A stretch of DNA of 64,000 nt. Origin: Sneathiella sp. GTDB taxonomy: Bacteria; Pseudomonadota; Alphaproteobacteria; Sneathiellales; Sneathiellaceae. The notes under the pieces are model-generated. The model was not told the origin of the DNA. It saw nothing but the letters and a program-made list of their open reading frames with translations, and made no database searches. The position numbers and the translations under genes are program-made. Location: the NCBI GenBank assembly GCA_002706985.1, contig PAKP01000053.1:1-64000 (forward strand), in the 5' to 3' direction. Positions 51,818 to 54,486 of this stretch are shown here, piece by piece; within the stretch, counting starts at the first letter, position 1, and every line of letters begins with the position of its first letter.

Positions 51818-52456
51818 TCAGCCTTTATCGATGAACGCAAGCAACTCGCGCCGTGTGATATCGGAACGGCGGAAGATGCCCAGCATTGTGCTGGTGACCA
51901 TCGTTACGCCATCTTTGTGCACGCCGCGTGTTGTCATGCATTGATGGGCGCTTTCAATCACAACAGCAACGCCCTTGGGCTGAAGCGTCCGTTCTATGGT
52001 TTCCGCAATTTGCCGGGTTAGCTTTTCCTGTATCTGCAGGCGCTTGGAATAGGCGTCCACAACACGGGCCAGCTTGGATATGCCAACAACCCGATTGCTC
52101 GGCATATAGGCAACATGGGCAACACCGATGATAGGGACCATGTGATGCTCGCAATAGCTTTCAACGCGAATATCTTTCAGAACGACCATCTCGTCATAGC
52201 CGTTCACTTCCTCGAATGTGCGGGAGAGATAGGTATCCGGATCTTCATTGTAGCCGGCAAAAAATTCGAGATAGGACCGCGTTACGCGATCGGGCGTGCC
52301 TTTCAATCCCTCGCGTGTCGGATCATCGCCTGCCCAACGGATCAGCGTTCGGACAGCTTCTTCTGCTTCCTTCTTTGTAGGCTTGTTCTGTACCGATTTA
52401 TCCGGGTGAATTTGCTTGTTCATTACTGGATCATTTCCCAAGGCATCGTCCGCCAT
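51818..52456 (-). CDS. folE: GTP cyclohydrolase I
   Basis: First enzyme of the tetrahydrofolate and pterin route (212 aa), forming 7,8-dihydroneopterin triphosphate. Zinc ligands are in [13 protein letters not shown] and [32 protein letters not shown] is canonical. The ATG at 52456 follows the apaG stop by two bases; a Met at 52423 is an alternative start. Confidence 0.94.
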
Positions 52457-52458
52457 TA

Positions 52459-52866
52459 TCAGTTTATGGACGATATTGAATCCGGACTGTCAAGTGAGAA
52501 GGCCGGAATATCGACCGCGAATGTCTTTCCTTCTTCCGATTCCATATCATAGGTGCCGACCATAATGCCGGACGAGGTGGAAAGGGGCGTTCCGCTGGTA
52601 TATTCATAAATATCGCCGGGCGCAAGAACAGGCTGTTCACCAATGACGCCCTCTCCATCAACCGTTTCTGTGTGCCCGTCGGCATTGGTAATACGCCAGT
52701 GGCGATTTCTGAGGGTTACGGTTCTGCTTCCCTGATTTTCAATTCTGACCTGATAGGCCCAGACATATAATCCGTCAGATGGACGTGATCGCTCAGCCAA
52801 ATAGACGGGCGTCACCGAAACCATGATATTCTCGGTAATTTTGCTATAGGCCGCCGCACCCGTCAT
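52459..52866 (-). CDS. apaG: ApaG domain protein
   Basis: A 135-residue beta-sandwich protein of the ApaG (CorD) family. [34 protein letters not shown] is the signature block, and [23 protein letters not shown] closes it. Linked to divalent-cation resistance and Ap4A in enterobacteria, but its biochemical function is unclear. It is first in an apaG-folE-trkH run. Confidence 0.93.
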
Positions 52867-52998: not shown

Positions 52999-54216
52999 TC
53001 AAGCGTTTTGTCGGCTAAGCGCGTAGCCTAAGTCCTCGATAAGATCGTCGACATCTTCCAGCCCGACAGATAGCCTTAACATGCTTTCCGTTATTCCCAG
53101 CTCTTGCTTTGTTGCCTCGTCAACGCTGGAATGGGTTGTCGTCGTCGGATGGGTGATCAGTGATTTTGCATCCCCGAGGTTATTGCTTATATCGACAAGC
53201 GACAGGCGGTTTAGAATGGAGAAGGCATCGTCCTGATTACCAGCCACTTCAAATGCGATGAGGGAGCCGCCGCGCGACATCTGCCGTTTCGCCAGCGCAT
53301 AATGTGGATGCGTGTCGCTGCCTGGATATAAAACGCGCTTGATAGCCGGATGACCGCTCAGGAAGGCGGCAATTTTTTCTGCGTTATCACATTGCTTTTC
53401 GACACGCAGTTCCAGCGTTTCCAACCCTTTTAGCAGGTTCCAGGCATTGAATGGGCTGAGCGCAGGACCGGTGTGCTTGAGATATGGCGCAAGAGTGTCT
53501 TCAACAAATTCTTCCGACCCGAGAACGATACCGCCGAGACAGCGACCCTGACCATCTATATGCTTTGTTGCGGAATAAACGACGATATCCGCCCCCAGTG
53601 CGATCGGATGTTGCAATACGGGTGTCGCGAAAACATTATCCACAACGACCTTTGCACCGACCTTATGGGCTAACTCCGAAATTGCCCCAATATCCATGAT
53701 TTCCAGCGCCGGGTTGGACGGTGTTTCGAAGAATACGCAGGCTGTCTTTTCAGTAATTGCTTTTTTCCATTGATCGATATCTGTGCCATCGATCAGGGTC
53801 ACCTCTATTCCGAATCTCGGGAGAATCGTCTCTATAATATACAGGCAGGATCCAAACAGCGCCTTTGGGGCAACCACATGATCTCCGGCCTTCAGCTGCG
53901 ACATCAGAGCGCCGTTTACGGCGGCCATGCCGCTTGCTGTTGCGCGGGCGGCCTCAGCCCCCTCTTCCAGAAGGATCATGCGTTCTTCAAACATGGAGAG
54001 GGTGGGGTTGGCGTATCGGGAATAGATGTAGCCGTCATTCTCTCCCTTGAAGCGGCCAGCGGCTTGCTCGGCGCTGTCATAAACAAAACCCGAATTCATG
54101 AAAATGGCTTCGGATGTCTCATTAAACTGGGAACGTTTGGTGCCGCCGCGGACCAGCTTTGTCGCTGTCCGGTATTCCGATGCGCGGGTCGGCGCTGTCT
54201 CTTTCTTGTCTGTCAT
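52999..54216 (-). CDS. metZ: O-succinylhomoserine sulfhydrylase MetZ
   Basis: PLP enzyme that adds sulfide to O-succinylhomoserine, giving homocysteine (405 aa from the ATG at 54216). Motifs: YIYSRYANPTLSMFEERM, ATASGMAAVNGAL, VVVDNVFATPVLQHP, the PLP Lys in VYSATKHIDGQGR, and SLGDAKSLITHPTTTTHS-like segments (NNLGDAKSLITHP). The transcript begins with a SAM-II riboswitch and a terminator. It supplies the step after MetX/MetW. Confidence 0.94.
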   Translation of the reverse strand: MTDKKETAPTRASEYRTATKLVRGGTKRSQFNETSEAIFMNSGFVYDSAEQAAGRFKGENDGYIYSRYANPTLSMFEERMILLEEGAEAARATASGMAAVNGALMSQLKAGDHVVAPKALFGSCLYIIETILPRFGIEVTLIDGTDIDQWKKAITEKTACVFFETPSNPALEIMDIGAISELAHKVGAKVVVDNVFATPVLQHPIALGADIVVYSATKHIDGQGRCLGGIVLGSEEFVEDTLAPYLKHTGPALSPFNAWNLLKGLETLELRVEKQCDNAEKIAAFLSGHPAIKRVLYPGSDTHPHYALAKRQMSRGGSLIAFEVAGNQDDAFSILNRLSLVDISNNLGDAKSLITHPTTTTHSSVDEATKQELGITESMLRLSVGLEDVDDLIEDLGYALSRQNA

Positions 54217-54232
54217 CTTACCCTCGAGGCAT

Positions 54233-54258
54233 AAAAAAACCCCGACCATCGATCAGGG
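54233..54258 (-). terminator. Riboswitch terminator of metZ
   Basis: In mRNA sense CCCTGATC pairs with GGTCGGGG around a three-base loop GAT, followed by seven U. Two pairs are G-U. It lies 16 bases before the metZ ATG and just upstream of a GAGGG ribosome site. Confidence 0.8.
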
Positions 54259-54265
54259 TTCATAC

Positions 54266-54360
54266 GAGCCCCGACCTTTTAGCGTTTCTTTTAACGTGGC
54301 CGCAAGCCGGTCGGCACAAATCACCACAGCAAAAAGCATTATCGCCACCGGCTGGGGCTG
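54266..54360 (-). promoter_or_regulatory. SAM-II riboswitch leader of metZ
   Basis: The aptamer reads (mRNA sense) GTGGTGATTTG, then CCGACCGG, CTTGCGGCCACGTTAAAA and ACGCTAAAAGG. The P1 stem is GTGG with CCAC, and GATTTG, CTTGC and GCTAAAA are the conserved SAM-II pseudoknot words. It is a class typical of alphaproteobacterial met genes. A helix AGCCCC (54354-54359) with GGGGCT (54267-54272) may close the element. The octamer GGTCGGGG just after the aptamer (54269-54276) is repeated inside the terminator. Confidence 0.88.
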
Positions 54361-54412
54361 TCAAGAATTTCTGTTGCGGTCTTGGGTTTCTTTCTGTAGG
54401 AACTGAATTTGC

Positions 54413-54486
54413 GCGGGCGTAGCTCAATGGCAGAGCAGAAGCTTCCCAAGCTTACGACGAGGGTTCGATTCCCTTCGCCCGCTCCA
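54413..54486 (+). tRNA. tRNA-Gly(CCC)
   Basis: A 74-base tRNA with acceptor GCGGGCG/CGCCCGC, D-arm AGCTCAATGGCAGAGC, anticodon loop TTCCCAA (CCC), T-loop TTCGATT and an encoded CCA. The outermost anticodon-stem pair (G27-A43) is a mismatch; the other stems are intact. Confidence 0.95.

Follow-up and report, generated by a model that had tools for sequence, protein, structure and literature searches.

The metZ locus and its leader

The window, by which we mean the whole 64,000-nucleotide stretch of DNA analysed here, carries on its minus strand a metZ gene for O-succinylhomoserine sulfhydrylase. The best MetZ-coding loci among the matches listed from the named collection belong mostly to Sneathiella, with 81-89% identity at the top of the list. 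Read along the minus strand, the metZ leader presents in order a predicted promoter, a SAM-II aptamer, a short terminator with T7, a Shine-Dalgarno-like GAGG and metZ itself. The features of this arrangement are the following:

54359..54364, minus strand: predicted −35 box TTGACA of the metZ leader promoter, called from the conservation of TTGAC
54354..54359, minus strand: AGCCCC, proposed as the 5′ half of a closing helix; it lies in the promoter and is not supported as part of the RNA (sequence, leader comparison)
54338..54343, minus strand: predicted −10 box GATAAT after a 15-nt spacer (sequence and leader comparison)
54259..54337, minus strand: SAM-II (SAM_alpha, RF00521) aptamer, 68.7 bits over the full model
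54324..54327, minus strand: P1 5′ strand GUGG (RF00521 alignment)
54309..54314, minus strand: P2 5′ strand CCGACC, which covaries with octamer copy 1 across families
54296..54299, minus strand: P1 3′ strand CCAC (RF00521 alignment)
54269..54276, minus strand: octamer copy 1, GGUCGGGG, whose first six bases are the P2 3′ strand and which is also the putative antiterminator 5′ arm (pairing, covariation)
54251..54258, minus strand: shared arm CCCUGAUC, partner of copy 1 (antiterminator) or copy 2 (terminator), from pairing
54240..54247, minus strand: octamer copy 2, GGUCGGGG, the terminator 3′ arm, exact in 24/24 family leaders
54233..54239, minus strand: U-tract (T7) of the intrinsic terminator (terminator scan, sequence)
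54221..54229, minus strand: CCUCGAGGG with the Shine-Dalgarno-like GAGG (sequence and family leaders)
52999..54216, minus strand: metZ, 405 aa, TIGR01325 at 567 bits against a cut-off of 510, and PF01053

A simple promoter consensus scan, which requires a spacer of 16-18, reported no promoter in the region; we attribute this to the 15-nt spacer before GATAAT, and the promoter call therefore rests on the conservation of TTGAC. This motif lies 34-46 nt upstream of P1 in 141 of the 174 SAM-II leaders compared below, and anywhere between 30 and 62 nt upstream of P1 in 144/174, against a mean of 4.3 and a maximum of 9 in 50 shuffles. The −10 box could instead be TAATGC, which would give a 17-nt spacer.

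Just upstream of the metZ start, CCTCGAGG (54221-54230, minus strand) is exact in 21/24 leaders of the window's family, a conserved stretch that exceeds the Shine-Dalgarno bases alone. An ApaG-domain gene (52459-52866) and folE (51818-52456) come after metZ on the same minus strand and might be co-transcribed with it. On the plus strand, a tRNA-Gly (CCC) gene at 54413-54486, divergent from metZ, begins ~50 bases from the metZ −35 box; at L154, a SAM-II locus of another family, an opposite-strand tRNA lies ~120 bases away.

The SAM-II aptamer and its P2 pseudoknot

A preliminary description of this DNA, made from its letters, had read a full SAM-II core in the metZ leader and had proposed a covariance-model scan as a check. 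The scan bears this out: RF00521 (SAM-II, SAM_alpha) matches 54337..54259 on the minus strand over its full length (model positions 1-79 of 79) with 68.7 bits, above the gathering score of 36 (E 2.4e-13), and this match is the sole one found in the window's own genome, which is 94.5% complete. The RF00521 alignment contains the P1 stem and the conserved core GAUUUG, GGCUUGC and CGCUAAA. The structure line of the model draws P1 only; the P2 pseudoknot, formed by the P1 loop with the 3′ tail, has 6/6 pairs in the window (CCGACC/GGUCGG), and its two strands show covariation across families, at most 1 swap in 500 being as good in any of 10 draws. The gene downstream is one of methionine synthesis, with 42 nt from the end of the match (54259) to the metZ start codon (54216).

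A duplicated octamer with one shared partner

The octamer GGTCGGGG occurs at 54276..54269 and again at 54247..54240 on the minus strand, and the complementary stretch CCCTGATC at 54258..54251 of the same strand can pair with each copy over 8/8 positions; written as RNA, each copy makes 8/8 pairs with CCCUGAUC, two being G-U. The preliminary description had noted both the repeat and its common partner, and had taken the second copy for the 3′ arm of a terminator, in agreement with the terminator scan, which places a hairpin at 54261..54237 followed by a T-run (element to 54233, with T7). The position that it had given to the first copy, just after the aptamer, needs correction, as copy 1 lies inside the aptamer, where its GGUCGG is the P2 3′ strand facing CCGACC (54314..54309).

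The terminator scan alone is not significant, since it found one terminator in the region where shuffled sequences gave 1.2 on average. The repeat was likewise rejected as striking by itself, because an exact 8-base repeat within 128 bases arises in 317/2000 first-order Markov sequences. What makes the octamer pair credible is its conservation among the leaders of the window's family (octamer 2 exact in 24/24, octamer 1 in 22/24) and not the length of the repeat.

Using ViennaRNA, which here models neither the pseudoknot nor SAM, we folded the growing chain and found that octamer 1 goes over to CCCUGAUC once CCCUGAUC is nearly complete, and that with CCCUGAUC complete the best fold holds octamer 1 in the antiterminator hairpin (−12.5 kcal/mol). 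Once octamer 2 has been made the terminator wins at −13.9 kcal/mol, with −10.0 for its core stem. When octamer 1 and CCGACC were blocked, mimicking SAM, the antiterminator could not form and the terminator did. Relative to its base composition, the full leader does not fold exceptionally well (z −1.85; 12/200 shuffles as good).

Comparison of 174 SAM-II leaders

For comparison, 174 leaders were gathered from the matches listed in three genome searches, with further regions added; an RF00521 match at E 0.001 was present in 57/95 genomes of relatives and 190/385 of class members, the two sets overlapping. Listed matches outside the 174 are G105, G219, G250, G094:C616 and six places below threshold. 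All 174 leaders could be placed by alignment to the window's aptamer (an earlier regular expression had kept 160/174), the placement of P2 being unreliable in weak RF00521 matches. A terminator, defined as a hairpin with a T-tract and at most 2 bases between stem and T-run, was found in 148/174 leaders, and in 135/174 under our first criterion; among the 26 that have none by these criteria, L168 is represented by 43 nt only. By tblastn, the downstream gene is MetZ-like in 149 leaders (130 with terminator), MetA-like in 8 (4 with terminator) and other or unassigned in 17 (14 with terminator). The MetA-like query, taken from L003, is a sequence that we presume to be rightly so named.

We then compared the P2 3′ strand with the terminator 5′ arm in one leader per family (55 families), exchanging the arms between families. 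Duplexes of the P2 3′ strand with its own arm average −9.30 kcal/mol, versus −8.31 (sd 0.24) for swapped arms, and 0/500 swaps were as good in each of 20 draws; ten additional draws yielded 0 or 1 such swap in 500. No comparable gain appeared for five sham segments taken from these leaders (z from −1.0 to +1.1); for one sham segment (8 nt upstream of copy 1), 5 and 10 of 500 were reached in two of 10 draws. Weaker tests gave smaller differences: the mean longest exact repeat was 4.58 versus 4.23 swapped (0 to 29 of 500 swaps as good per draw), and at least 6 contiguous pairs occurred in 32.3 versus 27.2 of 55 (0 to 116 of 500 swaps as good). Over all leaders with a terminator, 87/148 have at least 6 contiguous pairs versus 19.9 with shuffled arms, and taken singly 64/148 beat shuffled arms at p 0.05.

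The same tendency is visible at one antiterminator pair, where a C in the P2 strand meets a G in the arm in 8/8 leaders and never an A (of these eight C-G rows at least one, G356, seems shifted in register), and a U meets A in 58 leaders and G in 21. Fisher's test on this table gives p 7e-5 by leader and 0.005 by families (the same family may be entered in two cells); 87/148 leaders were usable for it, 26 having no P2 motif and 35 no arm motif. The covariation of the two octamers that the preliminary description had named as a check is thus seen across other families; inside the window's own family it does not appear, both octamers hardly varying there, with the inner UC-N4-GA of the antiterminator kept in 23/24 leaders. 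The comparison lends support to the idea that the P2 pseudoknot strand may serve a second time, as the antiterminator strand, in SAM-II switches of the terminator type.

The proposed switch and its alternatives

Membership in the aptamer class, the three mutually exclusive pairings (P2, antiterminator and terminator), their conservation and covariation, and the place of the promoter were computed; the order of folding, the binding of SAM by the window's RNA and a termination that depends on SAM are what we infer. Two traits of an off-riboswitch that terminates transcription were found at the locus, namely an intrinsic terminator after the aptamer and an antiterminator that, by predicted pairing and covariation, competes with both the terminator and the ligand-bound aptamer. 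Very probably, in our view, the element is a SAM-II riboswitch and shuts off metZ by terminating transcription. With SAM bound, P2 (CCGACC with GGUCGG) would hold octamer 1, so that CCCUGAUC would be free for octamer 2 and the terminator hairpin with U7 would form. With SAM absent, octamer 1, transcribed ahead of octamer 2, would pair first with CCCUGAUC, and the polymerase would pass the resulting antiterminator hairpin. Since the two hairpins are close in energy and copy 1 is transcribed first, the choice between them is expected to be kinetic. The role of copy 1 as an antiterminator opposing the terminator, already put forward in the preliminary description, is supported by the predicted energies and by covariation across families.

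That description had also let a closing helix around the aptamer, AGCCCC/GGGGCT (AGCCCC/GGGGCU as RNA), hold copy 1 when SAM is bound. The two sets of six bases are complementary in the window's own genome. However, AGCCCC starts on the final base of the −35 box TTGACA (54364..54359) and extends into the spacer before GATAAT (54343..54338), so it is present as letters and not expected in the RNA; the sections of Corbino et al. cited here likewise describe near-consensus promoter elements and a start a few nucleotides upstream of P1 (PMC1273637). Moreover, within the 62 nt upstream of P1, AGCCCC is found in 1/24 family leaders (the window's own) and 5/174 overall, and the reverse complement of a leader's own 6-mer at the place of GGGGCT in 6/174, no commoner than in swapped controls (4.6, sd 2.0). 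On its promoter position and its rarity among leaders we reject the closing helix, which we regard as extremely unlikely. The element able to hold octamer 1 is likely the P2 pseudoknot, a part of the SAM-II aptamer itself. The claim that a complete switch can be read from the sequence stands for the antiterminator and terminator and falls for the closing helix, whose place is taken by P2.

A mainly translational switch, in which the Shine-Dalgarno GAGG is partly masked by pairing of GCCUCGA with octamer 1 or 2 and SAM alters this pairing, would account for the exact conservation of CCTCGAGG in 21/24 family leaders, which include four that have no U-tract, and the full-length best fold does offer GCCUCGA a partner, UCGGGGC of copy 1. 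We nevertheless hold it to be improbable. The U-tract is intact in the window and in 20/24 family leaders overall, and blocking octamer 1, in imitation of SAM, raises the modelled opening of GAGG in the window from 0.47 to 0.73, the wrong sign for an off switch; the same block opens GAGG in 19/19 family leaders that have both the U-tract and the CTCGA block, these modelled effects being small and calculated without the pseudoknot. Somewhat less probable still, and in our judgement very unlikely, is a terminator that is constitutive or makes a small RNA, with the octamer repeat as a by-product of GC-rich sequence. Chance repeats of this length are not rare, as the 317/2000 above attests, and the Sinorhizobium meliloti sRNA RZ fits termination after a metZ switch, as far as the cited part of PMC9373788 goes. 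Yet exchanging arms between families weakens the pairing with the P2 3′ strand even though the exchange preserves row and column effects, GC content among them, and C-A mismatches are absent at the antiterminator pair tested.

Leaders without a U-tract and variant aptamers

The U-tract is absent in 4/24 family leaders, L025, L087, L089 and L091 (G005, G009, G007 and G018). All four keep both octamers and CCTCGAGG, and their tails read TCCTACAA, TCTAATAT and TTAATATG (twice). Downstream, L025 has an open frame of 398 codons, and in L087, L089 and L091 the frame stays open for at least 186-187 codons, up to the sequence end.

On blocking octamer 1 in the model, the opening of GAGG falls in three of these leaders (0.22 to 0.08, 0.39 to 0.30 and 0.42 to 0.38) and is flat in the fourth (0.24 to 0.25). 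The family may be shifting its level of control, such that in these four leaders the strand exchange would control the Shine-Dalgarno sequence, either in place of termination or in addition to it; we offer this as a tentative suggestion and think it rather unlikely.

Several weaker matches deviate from the aptamer described above. Five leaders from five families (L103, L104, L106, L108 and L109) match SAM_alpha at 38-44 bits and form a coherent aptamer variant with a GCGCC-type P1. The gene downstream of L103 and of L104 resembles what we take to be a sulfonate-type transporter binding protein; that of L108 is presumably siroheme-synthase-like and that of L109 presumably homocysteine-synthase-like. 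L105, a weak SAM-II match of 40 bits, precedes a gene that we assume to resemble MetK; possibly the SAM-II model has here caught a different class of SAM or SAH riboswitch.

Comparison with known systems

No paper linking Sneathiella with a riboswitch appeared in the literature searched. In the parts of the literature drawn on here, no covariation test of a SAM-II antiterminator was seen, and the sections used of PMC4239095 and PMC3764141 hold nothing on such an element; antiterminator covariation has been tested for purine riboswitches (PMC3723493, in part). SAM-II aptamers and terminators were surveyed in 2007 among riboswitch mechanisms (PMC2258182), but the part of that survey cited here contains no covariation test of a SAM-II antiterminator.

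The SAM-II/metA element class (RF00521, Corbino et al. 2005) shares with the window the P1 stem, the P2 pseudoknot and a promoter just upstream of P1, and many of its members were then assigned putative intrinsic terminators (PMC1273637, sections cited). It differs in that no antiterminator is named, the word 'antiterminator' occurring 0 times in the main text (PMC1273637). The metX SAM-II riboswitch (2QWY, Sargasso Sea) belongs to the same aptamer class, and SAM stabilises its P2; however, its P2 strand covers the ribosome-binding site and has no antiterminator role in the cited parts of PMC10907184 and PMC9373788.

The S. meliloti metZ riboswitch, although from another genus, resembles the window in having a SAM-II aptamer upstream of metZ with a terminator predicted to form on SAM binding (PMC9373788). 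According to the same source, so far as it was drawn on, the RZ sRNA of ~100 nt reaches higher levels in rich (TY) medium than in minimal medium, and a metZ fusion falls when metK is induced, as cited there.

Terminators and the pseudoknot are thus known from the papers used, and the general knowledge of riboswitches is left as it was by the present result. The result annotates the control element of metZ in a Sneathiella-like genome as a predicted transcriptional SAM-II switch, well formed and of an established kind, and the 174 leaders add comparative support for the sharing of one strand between P2 and the antiterminator.
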